A program made the translations under genes and the position numbers. The notes under the pieces were generated by a model, which saw nothing but the letters and a program-made list of their open reading frames with translations, did not search any database and had not been told where the DNA came from. A stretch of 64,000 bases of DNA from positions 1 through 64,000 of the forward strand of contig NZ_JAHXYW010000011.1 in assembly GCF_019969725.1 (NCBI RefSeq), written 5' to 3'. Positions within the stretch are counted from its first letter, which is position 1. Each line of letters starts with the position of its first letter. Positions 1,975 through 10,774 of the stretch are shown piece after piece. The stretch is from Neobacillus bataviensis (GTDB lineage Bacteria; Bacillota; Bacilli; Bacillales_B; DSM-18226).

Positions 1975-2169
1975 ATGAACATTTTTAATAAAATCGCTTT
2001 ATTTTTCGTTCTTCTATATTCAGTTTTCATTATTATCAATACTTACTTAGGAGAAACCGAACGGATCCAATCCAATGTTGTTTACCTCTTTATGAATGGA
2101 TTTGCCTATATTGTCTCAGCTTTAGAACTTGAAAAAGAAAAGCAGAAAATTGAAGTGAATTTGCTTTAG
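1975..2169 (+). CDS. Small membrane protein of unknown function (64 residues)
   Basis: The start ATG at 1975 is set by AAAGGGG at 1960-1966; an earlier in-frame ATG at 1936 has no ribosome site. Residues about 6-24 form one clear membrane segment ('IALFFVLLYSVFIIINTY'). A second hydrophobic stretch at about 36-50 and a charged tail ('EKEKQKIEV') follow. I recognise no family. It is monocistronic and ends in a perfect-palindrome terminator. Confidence 0.6.
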   Translation: MNIFNKIALFFVLLYSVFIIINTYLGETERIQSNVVYLFMNGFAYIVSALELEKEKQKIEVNLL

Positions 2170-2196
2170 TTTCTATTGGAATATCTATAACGAAAT

Positions 2197-2230
2197 GAAA
2201 AAACTAATCAAACGTTTGATTAGTTTTTTC
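2197..2230. terminator. Perfect-palindrome bidirectional terminator
   Basis: This is a 34-bp perfect palindrome with A6 on one side and T6 on the other. Its core is TAATCAAACGTTTGATTA (2205-2222). It works in either direction on paper and follows the small membrane protein gene. The same 18-bp core recurs at 51943-51960 and 52010-52027. Confidence 0.7.
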
Positions 2231-2326
2231 AAATTTCGCCATTATGACCCCACCGCCCATTTCAATTCGTCCTTCGAAGTATTTTGTTTCGAATAAAGCT
2301 CTTTATAATAACCATTCCGTTTTAAC

Positions 2327-2475
2327 TGACCCAAAAGTGGGGGAAGCACGCGGTTCGGTCACGTAGGCGGTGTCTACGTGACCCAAAAGTGGAGGAAGCT
2401 CGCGTTTCAGTCACGTAGGCGATATCTACGTGACCCAAAAGTGGGAGAGGCAAGCATTTCAGTCACGTAGACTCC
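2327..2475. repeat. 52-bp tandem hairpin repeat, about 2.8 copies
   Basis: Units start at 2327, 2379 and 2431, a period of exactly 52 bp. Each begins TGACCCAAAAGTGG. The unit junctions form hairpins: GTCACGTAG, a 7-base loop, CTACGTGAC (for example 2358-2382). The third copy decays after about 2472. The remainder of the gap 2231-2532 shows no gene I can support. The period and GTCAC/GTGAC stem ends match the arrays at 5281-5790. Confidence 0.85.
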
Positions 2476-2532
2476 CCATTAAACAATTTAAATACATAAA
2501 GCCCCAAAAAAGATTCTACCGTTTTGATAGAA

Positions 2533-3585
2533 TCACAATTTCTTCATTAATAAGTTTTTCGCAATGTAGGCCGCATCCTCTCCTACTCCCAAAAGAAGAG
2601 CAGAGCCCCGGCGATGCTGCCATGGCAACCCAAGGAAGTAGAGTCCATCAATCTCCGTTATACCTCTATGATGCTTAACACCCCCATTAGCAGCCACAAG
2701 ATTCTTAACATCAATCCATGAATAATCTCGAAGGAAACCAGTAGCCCATATCACATTCTCTACTCTAATGGTTGAAAGATCATCAAATTCAATCTCATTC
2801 TCATTTTGTACAATTGATTTTGTTCTGCTCTTTAACTTAACCGTATGATTTTTTATTTTCTCCTTCAGTTCATACCCAAATATCGGATCAGGTTGACTTT
2901 GCACCTTTTTTCCGATCCAAGAGTCCCGACCGGCCTGTAAAATCCCCAGTTTATCAAACCACCAAAAGATACTCCTGCCAGCAATGGTTAAAGGAAGAAA
3001 TCGAATTTTTTGGCCAATAGATAAGTACGTTTCATGATGTTGTGATACTTCTACTGCTATTTGCGCGCCAGAATTCCCGCCCCCGACAACTAAGACGGAT
3101 CCTTGGTTAAGTTGGGCTGGATTTTTATATTCAGATGAATGAATCTGAACAACGTGATTGGGCAGCTTTTTTGCAAACGGGGGAATATTAGGGGTTTGAA
3201 AAGGCCCTGAGGCAACGACCACTTTCTTTGTTCTTATAACAGAGTTACTAGTGAATATAGTAAAGGAATCATTTTCTTTCTGTACTTTTTGAACATGACA
3301 GTTCAAATGAATCAGTAAATCAAATGTTTTGGCATATCGCTCCAAGTAATCAGCAATTTCATCTTTAGTTGGAAACCCGGCTGGGTCCCCTTCTAATGCC
3401 AAACCTGGCAAAGAACTATAAGCACGTGGTGTGAACAATACAAGGGAGTCATACCTTTTTCGCCACACTTCCCCTATCGCAGCATGGTTTTCGAGAATGA
3501 TAAAAGATAAAGAGGTTTGCATAAGGTAATACCCCATAGATAATCCCGCTTGGCCGGCACCAATAACCACCACATCATAGATCAT
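2533..3585 (-). CDS. Flavin-containing monooxygenase/NAD(P)-binding oxidoreductase
   Basis: The protein has 350 residues. It has an N-terminal FAD-binding Rossmann motif 'VVIGAGQAGLSMG' (residues 6-18), an NADPH-binding 'VVGGGNSGAQIA' near 167 and a closing 'WATGF' near 282. This is the layout of CzcO/YrpB-type flavoprotein monooxygenases, which oxidise small substrates using NADPH and O2. The ATG at 3585 follows GGGGAGA. It stands alone after a terminator (3613-3639). The substrate cannot be told from sequence. Confidence 0.85.
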   Translation of the reverse strand: MIYDVVVIGAGQAGLSMGYYLMQTSLSFIILENHAAIGEVWRKRYDSLVLFTPRAYSSLPGLALEGDPAGFPTKDEIADYLERYAKTFDLLIHLNCHVQKVQKENDSFTIFTSNSVIRTKKVVVASGPFQTPNIPPFAKKLPNHVVQIHSSEYKNPAQLNQGSVLVVGGGNSGAQIAVEVSQHHETYLSIGQKIRFLPLTIAGRSIFWWFDKLGILQAGRDSWIGKKVQSQPDPIFGYELKEKIKNHTVKLKSRTKSIVQNENEIEFDDLSTIRVENVIWATGFLRDYSWIDVKNLVAANGGVKHHRGITEIDGLYFLGLPWQHRRGSALLLGVGEDAAYIAKNLLMKKL

Positions 3586-3612
3586 AAATATCTCTCCCCT
3601 ACAAGATTACAT

Positions 3613-3639
3613 AAAAAACTACTGGCAGTTTCCCAGTAG
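3613..3639 (-). terminator. Terminator of the His-rich protein gene
   Basis: On the minus strand CTACTGG (3639-3633) and CCAGTAG (3625-3619) form a 7-bp stem with a 7-base loop, followed by T6. It lies 47 bases after the stop of the gene at 3686-4555. Confidence 0.75.
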
Positions 3640-3685
3640 CAGGTGTTAATACTATTCATACATACTAATTTCCATTTTTCCATGC

Positions 3686-4555
3686 TTATTCTTTTATTTC
3701 GATTACAAACGGGAAGGCTCTTACTTTCCCCTTTTGCTTGAATTCTGCCCAAATTTTGTAGATGCCTGGCTTTTCAAACTGTGTTTCAAAAATTGGTTCC
3801 TTTTCATTTGATGGATGAACATGGAGAAACTTTTTACCATATTCATCAAGAATTACAACATGCCCCATTGCTCCTAAATATGGTGTCAAATTTGTTTGAT
3901 CTAAATCAAAGGATAGTGTTACGGGTTCTCCTGCCTTAAAGGAGTTCACACTTAATGTTACCGTTTCATCATCTATCGTTTTGCTAAAATTAGTGTCAAG
4001 CACCAGCGCATGACCGTGTACTGAAGCGCTCGGATTGCCCACGATAAATGGAACTGGCTCTACCTCATATGCTAGATTCTTTGGTTTAATATCGATAAAA
4101 GCTTTGTAGAATCCTTCAGGGAGATTCTTTTCTATTGTAAATTCGCCTTTTCCTGTTCGTTCTGGGTGTACGTGGTAATACTTCTGCAATTGTTCATCTA
4201 CGATAATTAGATGCAAAATCTTCTCATGATTTACTTCTAATTCATCAACCGGGCTTCCTGCTTTATCTTTTAAGAAAATCTTGATCTTTCCTTGATTGTT
4301 TTGCACAAATGCATTGACTTGGCTGCCTTGCTGGTGTGCATTGCCTTCATGTGCATGGCTGCTTCCAGTTTCATCACCGTTATGTTTTCCATTCTCTTCT
4401 TCCTCGGTACCATGCCCTGCTTTTTGAGCCATTGATCCGTGGCTGTCTGCCTCGGCAGCCATTCCTTTATCATCTGCAATCCATTTATCATAAGCACCGA
4501 ATCCAAGCACGACTAAAGTAACGTAAAGAATTCCTGCAATTGCCCATTTTCTCAT
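3686..4555 (-). CDS. Membrane-anchored His-rich protein with two HVHP-containing domains
   Basis: The protein has 289 residues. The N-terminus has one membrane segment (residues about 4-22, uncleaved anchor or signal). A low-complexity His/Glu/Gly-rich linker ('KAGHGTEEEENGKHNGDE', 'SSHAHEGNAHQ') covers about 35-75. Two beta-rich extracytoplasmic domains follow, with 'YYHVHPE' near 133 and 'FLHVHPS' near 245. Paired His residues suggest metal binding, perhaps copper, as in other secreted HxHP proteins (inference). The ATG at 4555 follows AGGAG; a GTG at 4564 overlaps that site. Its promoter carries the ComA-like boxes shared with the kinase operon. Function unproven. Confidence 0.6.
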   Translation of the reverse strand: MRKWAIAGILYVTLVVLGFGAYDKWIADDKGMAAEADSHGSMAQKAGHGTEEEENGKHNGDETGSSHAHEGNAHQQGSQVNAFVQNNQGKIKIFLKDKAGSPVDELEVNHEKILHLIIVDEQLQKYYHVHPERTGKGEFTIEKNLPEGFYKAFIDIKPKNLAYEVEPVPFIVGNPSASVHGHALVLDTNFSKTIDDETVTLSVNSFKAGEPVTLSFDLDQTNLTPYLGAMGHVVILDEYGKKFLHVHPSNEKEPIFETQFEKPGIYKIWAEFKQKGKVRAFPFVIEIKE

Positions 4556-4597
4556 CCTTTTCACTCCTAAAGGTTTTCACCTGTATTAGATGATTAC

Positions 4598-4672
4598 ATT
4601 GTACGTCGTTTTTGTTTCTTTCAAACCGCAGATATTTTGAGTGAAACCGCAGAATTTTGTGGTAGGTGCCGC
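4598..4672 (-). promoter_or_regulatory. Promoter with three 21-bp-phased TGCGG boxes
   Basis: On the minus strand the -10 is TACAAT (4598-4603). CCGCA elements (TGCGG on the transcribed strand) start at 4626, 4647 and 4668, exactly 21 bp apart. The first lies 28 bp from the -10. The middle site is a fuller inverted repeat, CCGCA-N6-TGTGG. The same geometry occurs at 5949-6013 and 8965-9018. No good -35 is present, consistent with an activator-dependent promoter. Confidence 0.65.
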
Positions 4673-4705
4673 ACTGTGATTATTATTTAGAAACCATGAT
4701 AAACC

Positions 4706-5215
4706 TTAACTGGATGTGTTAAGGTCATTAATGATGGTTTTTTTACTTCTTTTTTGAAAGGTAAAAAATACGATTCCCATAGAAATTATTACTGCAATTA
4801 GGGTGATTTTCAAAAACAAAGGCAGAATCAGAAATGCTATGGCAAACCATGCAAACAGAAGTGCAATCGGGCTGGTTGACCTGAGTATTGTATATATAAC
4901 CTTACCCAAACCTGAACGAATGATTGACGTTGCTTCTAATAACAATATCGTCGGATTCATGATCGCCCCAAAGACCAACGGGATAACAACATATAGGGAA
5001 AACTCAGTTTTTAAGGCTAGCTCCAAAATATACGCAAAGCCCAATGCAAAAGCTTGCATGAAATAGTCGAGGTGTGCTGATTTAAGTTTCCTTGCATTGG
5101 TAAACAGCTTTGTCATTGGAGTATTCCTTTGATAATGGACCGCTGCAACCGGGAGGGATAAAACAATCCCGAGCATAAAAGTGAATAATCCCCACTGTAA
5201 TAGGTGAACATTCAT
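4706..5215 (-). CDS. Four-TM membrane protein, possibly HabA/styrene-oxide-isomerase-like
   Basis: The protein has 169 residues with four hydrophobic segments (about 5-25, 50-70, 78-95, 115-150) and a basic tail 'FQKRSKK'. A polar loop reading 'NARKLKSAHLDYFMQA' after the first segment resembles the 'R..lsaHl' loop of hydroxylaminobenzene mutase/styrene-oxide isomerase proteins. That likeness is weak, so the assignment is tentative. AAAGGATG precedes the ATG. It lies between the two boxed promoters and just downstream of the 52-bp repeat arrays. Confidence 0.45.
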   Translation of the reverse strand: MNVHLLQWGLFTFMLGIVLSLPVAAVHYQRNTPMTKLFTNARKLKSAHLDYFMQAFALGFAYILELALKTEFSLYVVIPLVFGAIMNPTILLLEATSIIRSGLGKVIYTILRSTSPIALLFAWFAIAFLILPLFLKITLIAVIISMGIVFFTFQKRSKKTIINDLNTSS

Positions 5216-5280
5216 TTAACTTCATCCTTTCCATCTTTTTTTAATTAGCTTAAAATTAATAAACCTGCTCTTATCAACCG

Positions 5281-5504
5281 TCACCACACTTTTTCCGGTC
5301 TAACGGGCTTTATGAATCGCTCTTATCGACTGCATTACATTTTTTCCGGTCTGCCGGGCTTTATGAACCGTTTTAATCGACCGGCACTACACTATTTCCA
5401 GTCTATCGGGCTTTATGAACCGTTTTTATCGACTAGCACTACACTTTTTCCAGTCTGTCGAGCTTTATGAATCGCTCTTATCGACCGGCACCGCACTTGT
5501 TCTA
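5281..5504. repeat. 52-bp tandem repeat array A, about 4 copies
   Basis: The anchor GCTTTATGA recurs at 5307, 5359, 5410 and 5462 (spacing 52, 51, 52). Each unit carries CACTACACTTTTTCC-like sequence and a TCGG...CCG region with limited pairing. No coding frame is supported. It runs directly into array B. Confidence 0.85.
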
Positions 5505-5790
5505 ATTTGACTGGCACTCTGAACCCCTCAGAGTGACCGGGACTCTTCTTCTTCAACCTTGACGAGCACTCTGAATCTCTCAGAGTGACTGCGGCACTTC
5601 TTTTTCAACCTACATGGTCACTCTGGGCCCATCTGAGTGACCACGATTCTTCTTTTTCAACCATGACGGTCACTCTGAACCTCTCAGAGCGACCGCAACT
5701 CTTCTTTTTCAACCTTGACGAGCACTCTGAACCCCTCAGAGTGACCACGGCACTTCTTTTTTAATCCTGATGGGCACTGTCCAAAAAAGT
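5505..5790. repeat. 52-bp tandem hairpin repeat array B, about 5 copies
   Basis: CACTCT recurs at 5515, 5568, 5619, 5671 and 5723 (spacing 53, 51, 52, 52). Each unit holds a hairpin such as CACTCTGA-acccc-TCAGAGTG plus a spacer like CGGCACTTCTTTTTCAACC. One copy has a changed stem (GGCCCATC loop side) that still pairs partly. Together with array A it fills the gene-free gap 5216-5800. Confidence 0.85.
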
Positions 5791-5800
5791 ACTAGTCTAT

Positions 5801-5908
5801 TTAAAACCGCGTGAATAGCACTACTGAAATAATTGTGGCTGCTAAAAGTCCAACGATCGACCAAATGACAATCTTCTTTTTACCCTTCTTTTTTTGTTTT
5901 GTATTCAT
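5801..5908 (-). CDS. 35-residue basic single-span membrane peptide
   Basis: The frame starts at ATG 5908 with a near-perfect ribosome site (GGAGGTAAGG, 5911-5920) and ends TAA at 5801. The product begins with ten residues rich in lysine ('KQKKKGKKK'), then one membrane helix ('IVIWSIVGLLAATIISVVLF') and 'TRF'. The layout equals the first 35 residues of many HlyD/MacA-type adaptor proteins, so it could be a remnant of one. The strong ribosome site and boxed promoter argue for a real small protein. It sits between a ComA-like-box promoter and the repeat arrays. Confidence 0.6.
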   Translation of the reverse strand: MNTKQKKKGKKKIVIWSIVGLLAATIISVVLFTRF

Positions 5909-5948
5909 TTCCTTACCTCCATTAATTGATGTTCATCAGAATAATTTC

Positions 5949-6013
5949 ATTTTATTTCCAATTGATATTTTCAAATCCGCACACTTTTGGAGAACTGCCG
6001 CAGATTTTTGCGG
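5949..6013 (-). promoter_or_regulatory. Promoter with two 21-bp-phased TGCGG boxes
   Basis: On the minus strand the -10 is TAAAAT (5949-5954). CCGCA (TGCGG) boxes start at 5977 and 5998, 21 bp apart. The first lies 28 bp from the -10, the same figure as in the promoter at 4598-4672. The second is a full inverted repeat CCGCA-N6-TGCGG (5998-6013). It drives the 35-residue peptide gene. Confidence 0.65.
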
Positions 6014-6054
6014 TAGCCCCCCCAGCAATTTGCATCTCAAAGGGTTTTTGCTCG

Positions 6055-6083
6055 AAAAAAAAGACCGGTACATTGTACCGGTC
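6055..6083 (-). terminator. Terminator of the kinase/regulator operon
   Basis: GACCGGTACA (6063-6072) and TGTACCGGTC (6074-6083) form a perfect stem. On the minus strand it is followed by T8 (6062-6055). It directly follows the ComA-like regulator gene. Confidence 0.85.
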
Positions 6084-6087
6084 CCGC

Positions 6088-6735
6088 CTAATATAAATCT
6101 TCTGCTGGCAGAATCCCCAGGCTTTTCGCTTTTTTGATGGCTTCCACCCGTGAATTCACATTTAGTTTTTGAAAAAGCTCTGTCAGGCTATATTCCAATG
6201 ATCGCTGGCTGATCAGCAAGGTCTTGGAAATTTCCTTATTGCTATGTCCCTTCGCCAATTCCCGCAGGAGTTTTTCTTCTTTTTTTCTGATGGTGGTCTT
6301 TTCAGTTGTGTTCTCGCCTTGGACCACAATTTCTTGGCGTCTCAACTGTTTCAGCAGCTGCATCGGGATGATAGCCTCTTTCCTAGCTGCACTTCTTATT
6401 GCCTGAACCAATTGCTCCCGGGTGGAGGTTTTGGAAATAAAGCCGGAAACACCTGAATCCATGAGCAAATTAAAATGCGGTGCAATATCGAATCCGGAAT
6501 AAATCAATATGATGGCATCCGGGGCATCGGCAAGCACCTTTCGTGCCAAATCGGCTCCGTTAATATTCGGCATATATAAGTCAAACAGAATCACATCAAA
6601 ATTCTTCAGACGCACAAGGTCAGAAACCAGATAGACATCTGTCTCAATTGTGACCTTCATATCCGGCTCTGCTTCAATTAACATTTTGGTTCCTTCGACA
6701 ACCGACCTATGATCATCAACCAATAGTATTTCCAT
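6088..6735 (-). CDS. NarL/LuxR-family response regulator, ComA-like
   Basis: The protein has 215 residues. The receiver domain (1-120) has 'VDDH' near the start, phospho-acceptor Asp in 'ILFDLYMPN' and Lys in 'ISKTS'. A GerE-type HTH covers about 150-215 ('HSNKEISKTLLISQRSLEYS', 'LNVNSRVEAIKKAK'). The HTH and the 'EGTKMLIE' helix resemble Bacillus ComA more than DegU or LiaR (from memory of those families). The ATG at 6735 is preferred over a GTG at 6744, because AAGGTGAT fits it. It overlaps the kinase gene by 20 bases, so the two are translationally coupled. Confidence 0.88.
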   Translation of the reverse strand: MEILLVDDHRSVVEGTKMLIEAEPDMKVTIETDVYLVSDLVRLKNFDVILFDLYMPNINGADLARKVLADAPDAIILIYSGFDIAPHFNLLMDSGVSGFISKTSTREQLVQAIRSAARKEAIIPMQLLKQLRRQEIVVQGENTTEKTTIRKKEEKLLRELAKGHSNKEISKTLLISQRSLEYSLTELFQKLNVNSRVEAIKKAKSLGILPAEDLY

Positions 6736-8923
6736 AGTAATCACCTTTTTGCTGCATAGTTGTTGGGATATAGATATTTACATGAAACCCTTTTTGAGGA
6801 GCAGAATTAAGTTCCACTTTTCCTTCTAAACTAAGAACTCTGTTTTCAATACCGGCAATCCCCATATGTTTAAATGAACCCCCAAAGCCGGATAAATCCA
6901 TTCCTATCCCATTATCAGCATAAGAAAAATGAATGATTTCCTCATTGCTGGTCAAATTCACCGTTACTTTCGTCGCCTTTGAATGCTTATTCGCATTATT
7001 TAACAGCTCTTGTACAATCCGATACAACCCCAGTATCTGATCTTCCGTCAGCGGATTTTGTAAGTCCGTTACTGAAAAATCAATTTCATAATTGGAAAAC
7101 ATTCGAGCGTATGAAAAAAGACTTTTTAACGATTCGACCAGACCCATTTTCAGGAGAAACGGAGGCCGCAATTCATTACAAGTAATTCTAATTTGGTGAA
7201 TCGCATCCAGCAGGCCTTCTTCTATTTGCATCAGTTCACCCTGTGTTTCCTCATTAAAATAAGATGAGGAGCGTAATGATTCAAGCTTGCGGTACCAGAT
7301 GATTAAATCCTGCAAAACAGAATCATGCAAGTCGCTCGAAAGCGATGCCCGTTCCTTTTCCGATAACCTATACAAAAGTTTTAATATCCATTTTGGGGTA
7401 GTGCTATAGGTGACCATATCCTCTAGACGTTTCATCAAATCTTCAGTCCGCTGCAAATTATCATAAAGGATGGTGACATAATGAACGGCAGTTTCAAGCC
7501 ACTCTTCCTCCATTTTTAGCAACGGTTGCTTGATGCCAATCCTTAAATAAATCCATTGCTCTTTTTCAGTAATCTTAACCCATTTTTCATTCTTGCTGCT
7601 CGGAACCCCTTCATGGTCTCTCGGTACTTCTTCAATAGATACTTCAGTAACTGGGAGTACCTGCTTTACTTCATCCATTAGCCGATTCTCAAGATCTGTT
7701 ACTTTCATGACGTTGGCAAGGTCGTTAGAGAAACGGTTGATGCTTTCTGTGAGTGACTTATATCTTTCTTCACTTTGGATTAACTCCTGCTCTTCCTTTT
7801 TTCGCTGGGTAATGTCTTTTACGATTCCATGTACACCATTGAGTTGTCCAGAAAGGAAGATAGGAACAAAGGTAATATTAACGATGCGCTGATCAGCATG
7901 CCTTGACCGAAGGATCCGACATTCGACATCCTTTGGCTCCCTCTTTTTCATAACCTCTGAAAGAACTTGATAAACATCGATATGGTCCTCATCATAAATC
8001 AACCCAAGAAAGCACCGGTCAGTAAGATTAGCAAACTCGATACCTGAAATTTTTTCAAATGACCGATTAGCGTTGACAAAATCCCCATTTAAATCAATGG
8101 AAAAAACCCCATCCAAATTATTTTCAAATAAGGACTTATATCGCTGTTCGCTCTCTTCTAATGCCAGCTCAGACCGTTTTTTCTCGGTAATATCCAAGCT
8201 TATGCCATCAAGGCGTTCAATCTCGCCCACATTATTCATATAAGGTTGGATGATCATTTGATTCCACCTTGTTTCTCCTTCTACATGGATGAATCGGATT
8301 TCGCTATTGACCGCCATACCTTGATCTAGTTTATTCTTCGCTTCTCCCATGAGCATCTCATTATCATCCGGATGGATATGGTCATGCATACGTATCGGAC
8401 TATTGACAATCTCATGTCTTGGGAGGCCAGCTAATTTTTCCATGCTTCCCGAGCAGAAGGTTAAGCGGGAAAAATCCTTATCCGTTGACCAGACAGCTGC
8501 GTTTACACTTTCCAAAATATTTTCGAGTAATTGCTCCGTCTTTTTTCTCTCCGTTATATCTCTCACAACGGCTACAACATATTTTACATTCCCAAAACTA
8601 TCGAAAACAGGCTTAACCTTTGTTTCAACATAAACGGTTGTACCCTGTGGGTGCAGCAAGCGATATTCCAAATCCATTGGCATTTTAGTTTGAACCACTT
8701 GAACGTGTAAGGAGCGGACGCGTTCTCGGTCCTCGGGATGAATAATTTCGAAGGCATCCATACCCACATATTGTTGAACGGTAAAACCTGAAATTTGTTG
8801 AATCGATGGTGATACATAACGAACAATTGCCTGATTATCAACAAGAACTATACCGTCAGATGTGTGATCAGCCACAATTTTGTACCTTATTTCTTCATTA
8901 AGAAGATCCGATTCACTTTTCAT
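6716..8923 (-). CDS. PAS-rich sensor histidine kinase (HisKA_3 type, ComP-like core)
   Basis: The protein has 735 residues and no membrane segment, so it should be cytoplasmic. Three PAS/PAC modules are visible ('RYVSPSIQQISGF', 'TFCSGSMEKLAGL', 'VNANRSFEKISGI'), each closing with a 'DITERKK/DITEKKR/DITQRKK' signature. A linker domain (about 385-515), a HisKA_3 dimerisation region with phospho-acceptor His in 'SSDLHDSVLQD' (near 532) and an ATPase domain ('NNANKHS', 'DNGIGMD') follow. Bacillus ComP has a similar kinase core behind a membrane domain; here PAS domains replace it. AAAGGGGAGAG precedes the ATG. Confidence 0.9.
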   Translation of the reverse strand: MKSESDLLNEEIRYKIVADHTSDGIVLVDNQAIVRYVSPSIQQISGFTVQQYVGMDAFEIIHPEDRERVRSLHVQVVQTKMPMDLEYRLLHPQGTTVYVETKVKPVFDSFGNVKYVVAVVRDITERKKTEQLLENILESVNAAVWSTDKDFSRLTFCSGSMEKLAGLPRHEIVNSPIRMHDHIHPDDNEMLMGEAKNKLDQGMAVNSEIRFIHVEGETRWNQMIIQPYMNNVGEIERLDGISLDITEKKRSELALEESEQRYKSLFENNLDGVFSIDLNGDFVNANRSFEKISGIEFANLTDRCFLGLIYDEDHIDVYQVLSEVMKKREPKDVECRILRSRHADQRIVNITFVPIFLSGQLNGVHGIVKDITQRKKEEQELIQSEERYKSLTESINRFSNDLANVMKVTDLENRLMDEVKQVLPVTEVSIEEVPRDHEGVPSSKNEKWVKITEKEQWIYLRIGIKQPLLKMEEEWLETAVHYVTILYDNLQRTEDLMKRLEDMVTYSTTPKWILKLLYRLSEKERASLSSDLHDSVLQDLIIWYRKLESLRSSSYFNEETQGELMQIEEGLLDAIHQIRITCNELRPPFLLKMGLVESLKSLFSYARMFSNYEIDFSVTDLQNPLTEDQILGLYRIVQELLNNANKHSKATKVTVNLTSNEEIIHFSYADNGIGMDLSGFGGSFKHMGIAGIENRVLSLEGKVELNSAPQKGFHVNIYIPTTMQQKGDYYGNTIG

Positions 8924-8964
8924 TCTCTCTCCCCTTTGCTCTCCGTCTCTATTCTTTAATAATT

Positions 8965-9018
8965 ATTATAATAGAAGAAAAATATCGAAAACACGCAAAA
9001 TTATGGGGAAGGAACGCA
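8965..9018 (-). promoter_or_regulatory. Promoter of the kinase/regulator operon with phased boxes
   Basis: On the minus strand the -10 is a consensus TATAAT (8965-8970). ACGCA elements start at 8993 and 9014, 21 bp apart. The first is 28 bp from the -10 and reads ACGCA-N6-TGGGG, two mismatches from the CCGCA-N6-TGYGG sites downstream. The arrangement implies autoregulation by the ComA-like regulator. The RNase J gene lies on the other side. Confidence 0.6.
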
Positions 9019-9100
9019 ATTTATTAAAAGAACTTCCTAAATAAAGAAATTCTATAAGGGGATACTAATGTTAATCAATGGGAATTAGGAGGGTATCAAC

Positions 9101-10774
9101 TTGCAAAACAATGAAAACACATTATCCATTTTCGCCTTGGGCGGCATCAATGAAATCGGTAAAAACATGTACGTGGTTCAATATGGTGACGATATTATTG
9201 TCGTCGACTGCGGCGGTAAGTTTCCCGATGAAAGCTTGTTAGGTATCGATTTGATCATCCCTGATTTAACCTACTTAGAAGAGAATCAGGAAAAAATAAG
9301 AGCCTTAATTGTGACGCATGGACACGAAGACCATATCGGCGGGATCCCTTACTTTTTAAAAAAATTAAATGTACCCATTTATGCGACCCAATTTACTTTA
9401 GGGTTAATCGAATTAAAAGTGGATGAGCATCGCCTTAAAGGGGATAGCAAACTGATCCCAATTGACTCGGAGTCCAGGCTTGAGCTGGGGCAGATAGATG
9501 TTTCCTTTTTCCGTGTCAGTCACAGTATTCCTGACTGCCTGGGCATTGTTTTTCATACACCTGAAGGAAACGTTGTCCATACCGGGGATTTCAAATTTGA
9601 TTTAACACCAGCTAATAACCAATTTTCAGATATTCATAAAATGGCCGATATCGGCAGCAAGGGTGTATTAGTTTTAATTTCGGAAAGTACCAATGCCGAA
9701 CGAACTGGACTATCCCCATCAGAACAAATGGTAGGACACCATATGGAAGAGGCATTTATGGATGCGCCAGGAAAAATAATCGTATCGACCTTTGCATCTA
9801 ATGTGAATCGAGTTCAGCAAGTCGTCCAGGCAGCTATCAAAACAAACCGGAAGCTGGCACTTTTAGGCCGGAGCATGGTGAATGTGGTTTCCGTCGCCAT
9901 TGAACGGGGATATCTCGATGTGCCGGAAGGAATGCTGATCGAGGCAATGGAAGTTGATAAACTTGCTCCTGAAAAGGTCGCGATTCTCTGTACCGGAAGT
10001 CAGGGGGAACCAATGGCCGCCCTAGCCCGCCTTGCAAGCGGCAACTATCGTGATGTAGCGATTTACCCTGGAGATACGGTTATTTTAGCGGCATCCCCGA
10101 TACCCGGTAATGAAAAGGATGTTTCAAAGATCATCGACAACTTATTTCAACTGGGGGCAAAAGTGATTTATGGTTCTGGCAGTACCACCGGAATGCATGT
10201 TTCCGGACATGGCTATCAGGAGGACTTGAAGCTGATGCTTACCTTTATGAAACCAACCTATTTTATCCCGATCCATGGTGAGTATCGAATGCTGCACCAT
10301 CACCGACTCCTCGCCGAAGCGATTGGAGTGGAGAAAGGAAATACCTTCATTATTAAAAATGGAGATGTCGTCGATATTGAAAACGGGGTGGCCAGGCAGA
10401 CTAGGAGAATACCTGCTGGAGATACGTATGTAGACGGAATGGGTGTCGGTGATATTGGAGAAATTGTGCTGCGCGACCGGAGGCAGCTTTCTGAGGACGG
10501 AATGCTTGTGATTGTTGTAACCATTAGTAAAGCAGACCGGAAAATTATTTCAGGTCCTGACACCATTACCCGCGGTTTCGTTTATGCGAGAAATTCCGAT
10601 GAGCTCCTGAAAGAAGTGAATCGTCTTGTAAAGAAAACCGTCACCGACCTGCAGGAAGAAAACAGACATCAATGGAATGTCATGAAACAAAGCATCAAAA
10701 AATCTGTCGGACAATATTTATTCACCCAAACAAAACGCAAACCAATGATCCTCCCCATCATTATCGAAATTTGA
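9101..10774 (+). CDS. rnj: Ribonuclease J family (5'-3' exo/endoribonuclease)
   Basis: The protein has 557 residues, the usual RNase J length. A metallo-beta-lactamase/beta-CASP catalytic core runs from residue 8, with zinc ligands in 'THGHEDHIGG' (near 72-81), 'HSIPD' and 'HTGDFKFD'. The beta-CASP segment includes 'CTGSQGEPMAAL' and 'PIHGEYRM', and the C-terminal domain ends 'KRKPMILPIIIEI', as in RnjA. The start is TTG (9101) with AGGAGGG 7 bases upstream. It stands alone and lacks the rpoY neighbour usual for Bacillus rnjA, so it may be an extra paralogue. Role: RNA decay and maturation. Confidence 0.9.
   Translation: MQNNENTLSIFALGGINEIGKNMYVVQYGDDIIVVDCGGKFPDESLLGIDLIIPDLTYLEENQEKIRALIVTHGHEDHIGGIPYFLKKLNVPIYATQFTLGLIELKVDEHRLKGDSKLIPIDSESRLELGQIDVSFFRVSHSIPDCLGIVFHTPEGNVVHTGDFKFDLTPANNQFSDIHKMADIGSKGVLVLISESTNAERTGLSPSEQMVGHHMEEAFMDAPGKIIVSTFASNVNRVQQVVQAAIKTNRKLALLGRSMVNVVSVAIERGYLDVPEGMLIEAMEVDKLAPEKVAILCTGSQGEPMAALARLASGNYRDVAIYPGDTVILAASPIPGNEKDVSKIIDNLFQLGAKVIYGSGSTTGMHVSGHGYQEDLKLMLTFMKPTYFIPIHGEYRMLHHHRLLAEAIGVEKGNTFIIKNGDVVDIENGVARQTRRIPAGDTYVDGMGVGDIGEIVLRDRRQLSEDGMLVIVVTISKADRKIISGPDTITRGFVYARNSDELLKEVNRLVKKTVTDLQEENRHQWNVMKQSIKKSVGQYLFTQTKRKPMILPIIIEI

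Follow-up and report, generated by a model that had tools for sequence, protein, structure and literature searches.

A 64-kb stretch of Neobacillus bataviensis DNA (NZ_JAHXYW010000011.1, positions 1-64,000; referred to here as the window) carries on its minus strand the genes for a histidine kinase and a ComA-like response regulator, together with three promoters that are preceded by regularly spaced TGCGG or TGCGT boxes. The question that this locus raises is whether the boxes belong to a self-regulated regulon and, if so, how they are read and which genes they serve. As argued below, the ComA-type regulator and its cytoplasmic PAS kinase very probably act through arrays of half-sites phased at 21 bp, both on their own operon and on genes for efflux, metal handling and redox functions. 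The phased arrays, their fixed register with the -10 element, their association with the regulator, their autoregulatory position and the ComA-type helix-turn-helix (HTH) and half-site can all be read directly from the DNA and protein sequences. Judged on this evidence, the regulon is real and conserved, a variant of the ComA type in which a supposed peptide gene has to be re-read as a relic.

The coordinates of the boxes were checked letter by letter (Table 1). The -10 elements starting at positions 4598, 5949 and 8965 are each matched by a box whose plus-strand start lies 28 bp away (4626, 5977 and 8993); counted on the coding strand, TGCGG begins 27 nt before the -10 element does. Second boxes (4647, 5998 and 9014) begin exactly 21 bp beyond the first. 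The original prediction had described this geometry correctly except for the third box of the first promoter, which starts at 4669 instead of 4668 and lies 22 bp from its neighbor. The extended motif CCGCA-N6-TG(T/C)GG that it had proposed is present at two promoters, as CCGCA-N6-TGTGG (4647-4662) and CCGCA-N6-TGCGG (5998-6013), and is represented at the third by the weaker ACGCA-N6-TGGGG (8993-9008). Pairs of the form TGCGK-N16-TGCGK (K = G or T) occur exactly three times in the window, all at the named promoters and all with a TATAAT-like -10 element in register, while 300 first-order Markov windows contained 0.16 pairs on average (maximum 3) and none with a -10 element in register. A sigma-70 scan demanding a -35 element reported none of the three promoters, as is expected if they are activator-dependent.

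The original prediction had named conservation of the spacing in related genomes as a point on which it could fail; the spacing is kept. Relatives were gathered via the regulator. A first search returned 22 loci, and a full-length relative is encoded at 19 of them (L001-L019); L004 and L005, both from Bacillus sp. FJAT-49736, represent a single locus that appears on two contigs with the same match statistics, either a real duplication or an assembly artefact. At E ≤ 1e-60 the regulator was found in 28 of the 193 genomes searched in one family and in 85 of the 296 searched in an order; an identity of at least 79% was reached in 8 and 24 of these genomes, respectively, the remaining matches falling mostly at 46-56%. 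The orthologue set comprised 22 stretches totalling 349 kb; two of the genomes contribute a pair of stretches, and L084 encodes, besides the orthologue, another regulator with 51% identity. Its TGCGK spacing spectrum showed 52 pairs at N16, 7 at N17 and 11 at N37 (two units), and at most 5 at any other spacing between 0 and 59. The same spectrum for 11 stretches (215 kb) around regulators of about 50-60% identity gave 34 pairs at N16, 13 at N17, 14 at N37 and 11 at N38, and no more than 4 elsewhere. The box has drifted to TTGCG(C/T/G) in 10 loci from Brevibacillus, Paenibacillus and Ammoniphilus; TTGCG recurs there with a period of 21 (24 matches) or 42 (7 matches), other periods between 10 and 49 being found at most twice.

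The register with the -10 element is conserved as well. After arrays with at least 70% identity had been dropped, 59 of 81 were left, in which the distance from the start of the last box to the -10 element is exactly 27 nt in 39 cases and 26-28 nt in 44, any other distance accounting for 0-7 cases each; these 59 include pairs picked by eye outside the clusters, one with (L105) and four without a -10 element (L103, L104, L108 and L109). For the Brevibacillus/Paenibacillus/Ammoniphilus set the element was in register for 17 of 19 last boxes. Among control pairs elsewhere in three genomes the corresponding count was 1 of 40. The controls consisted of all other listed places of genomes G004 and G016, minus the eye-picked L103, L105 and L107, and of 16 of the 35 listed places of G003 (54 in total); 32 of the 40 sit in a stop-free stretch of at least 90 codons. 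As a separate observation, many non-kinase promoters share the bases following the -10 element (TACAATGAAATCATC-like), perhaps because of a preferred discriminator or of common descent.

At 20 of 21 orthologue loci, in several genera, the kinase gene is immediately preceded by an array with a -10 element, which bears out the self-directed array originally noticed at the kinase/regulator operon. The boxes of these kinase arrays are 21 bp apart (20 in L015) and the -10 element follows at 26-27; L009 and L016 have a split reading frame for the kinase. In the exceptional locus, L010, only the C-terminal part of a kinase was found and the array precedes a protein of 231 residues. Co-occurrence was assessed with the pattern TGCGG-N16-TGCGGNTT. 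It yielded 43 matches in 20 regulator-bearing genomes, with a -10 element in register for 10 of the 30 that were scored (8 of the 13 unscored matches lie in regulator clusters, and kinship was not controlled for between the two sets of genomes). The other set, 20 genomes from the same family that lack the regulator at E ≤ 1e-60, a threshold at which more distant relatives may remain, gave 14 matches, none with a -10 element in register and none with the spacer signature. This comparison is only partly independent because most of the ten -10 matches lie in the clusters themselves.

Table 1. Promoter elements, genes and repeats of the kinase/regulator region (window coordinates)
Feature	Position	Strand	Remarks
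-10 element TACAAT (plus strand ATTGTA)	4598..4603	-	His-rich protein gene; letter check
Three TGCGG boxes (4626-4630, 4647-4651, 4669-4673)	4626..4673	-	inverted half-site CCACA (4658-4662) inside array
-10 element TAAAAT (plus strand ATTTTA)	5949..5954	-	precedes 35-codon open reading frame; letter check
Two TGCGG boxes (5977-5981, 5998-6002)	5977..6013	-	inverted half-site CCGCA (plus-strand TGCGG 6009-6013)
-10 element TATAAT (plus strand ATTATA)	8965..8970	-	kinase/regulator operon; letter check
Two TGCGT boxes (8993-8997, 9014-9018)	8993..9018	-	before kinase; weak inverted half-site CCCCA (9004-9008)
Histidine kinase without membrane segment	6716..8923	-	PAS domains, HisKA_3, HATPase; H-box His 533
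NarL/FixJ-type response regulator, ComA-like HTH	6088..6735	-	ATG at 6735; longer GTG start at 6744
Strong terminator-like hairpin	6061..6085	-	behind regulator gene
35-codon open reading frame, N-terminal relic of MacA/HlyD-type efflux adaptor	5801..5908	-	75.8% identity to residues 1-33 of L085:7451-8323
Second 52-bp minisatellite	5507..5778	.	5.2 copies
52-bp minisatellite	5262..5502	.	4.6 copies; downstream of adaptor relic
169-residue membrane protein	4706..5215	-	no family; some homologues in relatives array-preceded
His-rich protein	3686..4555	-	predicted N-terminal helix, disordered His-rich linker, two beta-sandwich regions; invariant histidines
Terminator-like hairpin	3618..3640	-	behind His-rich gene
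Flavin monooxygenase-like gene	2533..3585	-	behind terminator-like hairpin; recurrent neighbor, 7 loci including window

The regulator is a plausible reader of such boxes. Response_reg and GerE score above the Pfam cutoff, and a Pfam scan up to E = 1 yielded no LytTR match. The best match of its HTH in the PDB is B. subtilis ComA (2krf/3ulq), with 31 of 63 residues identical and an SxRSxEYSLT segment of the recognition-helix region in common, in line with the ComA-like HTH of the original prediction; for the full-length protein the top match is VraR. JGI has attached the label 'competent response regulator ComA' to at least 23 of the 120 listed close homologues. The kinase, originally described as a cytoplasmic PAS-sensing enzyme, indeed contains PAS domains and has no membrane segment by hydropathy (maximum 1.3 over 19 residues). 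Its PAS domains give weak matches to oxygen- and light-sensing proteins among others, which do not decide the ligand.

ComA of B. subtilis binds TTGCGG half-sites arranged as an inverted repeat with a spacer of 4 (5 is tolerated) or as a direct repeat with a spacer of 5 (Wolf et al., 2015, PMC4797271). The likeness of TGCGG to this half-site, pointed out originally, holds for the boxes in the arrays, but the layout differs, the 21-bp array being a variant and not the combination of an inverted repeat with an 11-bp direct repeat. The ComA-type inverted repeat with spacer 5, TTGCG-N7-CGCAA, was found 8 times in the 10 Brevibacillus/Paenibacillus/Ammoniphilus loci versus 0-1 times at other spacings; in 7 of the 8 cases an in-register box follows at +21, one per locus in 7 of the 10 loci. 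All seven of these arrays are non-kinase arrays, and the exact repeat was not found in the examined kinase arrays of that set. In the Bacillaceae, the window included, the middle half-site is degenerate, with C at -9 in 84% and A at -6 in 77% of 44 promoters, and the mean match to CCGCAA is 3.06 of 6, above all 2000 shuffles. A direct ComA half-site inside the 16-nt spacer was considered and discarded; the best candidate scored 1.77 of 6, a value close to the null that 37 of 2000 shuffles across all 35 spacers reached.

Several observations weigh against the assignment of the arrays to this regulator or against the proposed site logic. The 11-bp direct repeat of ComA, TGCGG-N6-TGCGG, occurs 0 times in 22 group-I and twice in 11 group-II stretches, compared with 30 and 30 occurrences at N16. 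The weak half-site of the Bacillaceae has to be set against a reversed control motif that likewise exceeds its shuffle null (2.51), albeit less strongly, so that the dyad is moderately supported at most in these organisms. Fifteen of the 59 arrays lack a -10 element at 26-28 nt, although in at least four of them (L008, L010, L011 and L015) a TGCGC box follows after another 21 bp and is itself followed by a -10 element. When short loci (about 1.5 kb on either side of the regulator) were inspected, an array with a -10 element was present in 19 of 32 close, 5 of 28 distant and 1 of 27 background loci, the last having been selected for holding a pair. In the ComA study, the B. subtilis protein did not bind a lone direct repeat with a spacer of 15, i.e. 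a 21-bp period, at the concentrations used (PMC4797271); an array would therefore have to make use of the inverted half-site or of cooperativity. Finally, the linkage of array and regulator is partly built in, since the large loci were chosen by the regulator gene. Together with the box pairs that occur without a -10 element in genomes lacking a close regulator, this would also fit arrays that belong to a different regulator of the same genomes, the local ComA-like protein being only linked. We consider this unlikely in view of the position of the kinase array, conserved across genera, the identity of the half-site with that of ComA, the closest solved relative of the regulator, and the lack of any in-register pair among the 14 from genomes without a close regulator.

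If the arrays are assigned to the ComA-type regulator, the following mechanism can be envisaged. The cytoplasmic PAS-sensing kinase would phosphorylate the regulator, which would in turn bind TTGCG(G/T/C) half-sites recurring every 21 bp. As 21 bp correspond to two turns of DNA, all strong half-sites would lie on one helical face. An inverted, CGCAA-like half-site placed about 10.5 bp between strong ones would, provided that the dyad holds, make the orientation alternate on that face, so that a period could be interpreted as an inverted repeat of the ComA kind, its spacer being 5 nt. The last half-site would cover about -39 to -35, directly upstream of the would-be -35 element and 27 nt from the -10 element, and since a normal -35 element is lacking, the bound regulator would be expected to recruit RNA polymerase. 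We infer that the regulator binds the arrays, that it activates rather than represses and that it does so as an oligomer assembled cooperatively along one face of the DNA. The circuit would thereby activate its own operon in a positive feedback as well as a variable set of genes for efflux, metal and redox functions; in the window its outputs would comprise the kinase/regulator operon and the His-rich protein, plus an adaptor gene that is dead. As to the signal, the efflux, copper and redox genes among the targets suggest a membrane- or redox-active compound or metal stress, which is a guess.

Many proteins of the NarL family both repress and activate, and the boxes abut the core promoter, as operators for negative autoregulation by the same regulator might. 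Such repression is nevertheless improbable, because no -35/-10 pair was detected in the scan at any of the three promoters, because the array lies upstream of the -35 position and not over the -10 element or the start, and because ComA activates from sites adjoining -35 (PMC4797271). Several clustered ComA sites are described for the B. subtilis pel promoter in the same work (PMC4797271).

Which genes stand behind the arrays in relatives was derived from the Pfam or NCBIfam assignment of the gene itself or of a homologue in its cluster, genes having been called by a simple script. Exporters are represented by the HlyD/MacA adaptor, MacB-type ATPases (followed by FtsX-type permeases), an MsbA-type ABC exporter, an ABC-2 protein and MFS transporters, metal and redox functions by a CopA-type ATPase, an HMA copper chaperone (CopZ) and DJ-1/PfpI proteins. 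An alpha/beta hydrolase, the His-rich protein, a membrane protein of 162-169 residues and the PAS kinases themselves are also array-preceded, and malate:quinone oxidoreductase is encoded 400-500 bp behind two arrays. Distal candidates picked by eye comprise a DJ-1-like gene (L105; a homologue is again array-preceded in L152) and an MsbA-type exporter (L107); both have homologues among the cluster targets. By these annotations the array-preceded set in the relatives is an efflux/stress regulon. The local regulon around the kinase that had been proposed originally agrees with the three promoters of the window, but is too narrow for the relatives, where efflux, metal transport and redox genes prevail and a few distal candidates are added.

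The second promoter of the window had been thought to serve a gene for a small membrane peptide of 35 residues. Homology points instead to the N-terminal stump of a MacA/HlyD adaptor: the product aligns over 33 residues with a full-length protein (Table 1) whose gene has the same kind of promoter, and the same N-terminus opens HlyD/MacA adaptors of about 290 residues in relatives (ten homologues of full-length size are listed). For the rest of the adaptor, including the barrel-sandwich domain, no further significant match was obtained in window positions 2001-9100. By these comparisons the reading frame is an adaptor relic displaced by minisatellites, two adjacent ones that differ in sequence and share an identical period of 52 bp. 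In L001 (regulator 98% identical) the box pair is kept, the -10 element and the start codon are gone, and the DNA directly after the boxes is 80-87% identical to the second minisatellite of the window; stump and loss together suggest that the adaptor target is decaying here. The L001 record is titled Paenibacillus sp. BSR1-1, and its near-identity with the Neobacillus-like window locus means that this name is probably wrong. A functional signaling or regulatory peptide acting with a ComP-like kinase could claim the intact boxed promoter, ribosome-binding site and start codon in the window; it is very improbable, given the adaptors that begin alike, the state of the gene in the closest relative and a kinase without membrane segment. 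Chance or a compositional artefact is practically negligible in light of 0 of 300 Markov windows with an in-register pair, 52 pairs against at most 5 in the spacing spectrum and -10 frequencies of 44 of 59 versus 1 of 40 and 0 of 14.

The His-rich protein, the remaining output, has no Pfam family above cutoff. Seven of its histidines (110, 115, 128, 130, 232, 245 and 247) are invariant in 17 aligned sequences, and several homologues, judged by eye, are lipoprotein-like and lack the linker; these two features make it reasonable to guess that the protein binds metal at the cell surface.

LytTR-type regulators (ComE, AgrA, PlnD) likewise act at promoters where a pair of direct repeats, spaced by about 21-22 bp, immediately precedes the core promoter; the present system differs from them by its GerE/LuxR DNA-binding domain and its box sequence. 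LiaRS/VraRS and LnrJK are self-controlling NarL-type systems for stress genes or exporters that combine a HisKA_3-type kinase with a NarL-type regulator; their kinases are membrane-embedded and, to our knowledge, they share neither the box sequence nor the phased arrays. ComP is a membrane kinase as well, whereas the PAS kinase described here has no membrane segment, and the targets differ from the ComA regulon in being pumps, metal and redox genes plus the own operon. Neither comX nor comQ was noticed among the recurrent neighbors, no family model having been run for either. With the B. subtilis ComA/ComP system there are in common the NarL-type regulator, the same recognition-helix segment, the TTGCGG half-site and the presence of several half-sites adjoining -35. 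The inverted repeat of ComA promoters is explicit here in the seven Brevibacillus/Paenibacillus/Ammoniphilus arrays and degenerate in the Bacillaceae; its optimal spacer is 4 in B. subtilis versus 5 here, and direct half-sites are 11 bp apart there versus 21 bp here (PMC4797271).

A limited literature search found no description of such a circuit. We tentatively propose that it may represent a branch of the ComA family that is widespread, so far undescribed and not devoted to quorum sensing, in which a cytoplasmic PAS kinase and a ComA-type regulator, assembling cooperatively along one face of the DNA on arrays of up to four in-phase half-sites, govern a self-amplifying efflux, metal and redox regulon in Bacillus-, Paenibacillus- and Brevibacillus-type bacteria. 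Should this be true, control of competence by ComA would be one derived use of an older promoter code for stress responses, and the name 'ComA' that such proteins receive automatically would be misleading. The code itself is precise and testable (half-site, 21-bp period, 27 nt to the -10 element). It allows targets to be predicted from sequence in unstudied soil bacteria and directs attention away from competence, towards pumps and metal handling; the natural arrays offer a test bed for cooperation of ComA-type activators along DNA and for recruitment of the polymerase.

Three minor observations concern neighboring genes and a related cluster. A homologue with 46% identity to the 169-residue membrane protein is deposited for the amoeba Willaertia magna, reflecting gene transfer or contamination. 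A ribonuclease J-like gene (window positions 9101-10774) diverges from the kinase operon; it scores 775.9 versus an RNase J1 cutoff of 820 and may therefore be a paralogue. In genome G003 (contig C15, 350001-390000; L083 and L084) two regulators with 88% and 51% identity to that of the window are encoded 24 kb apart, and this cluster contains seven arrays with a -10 element in register.

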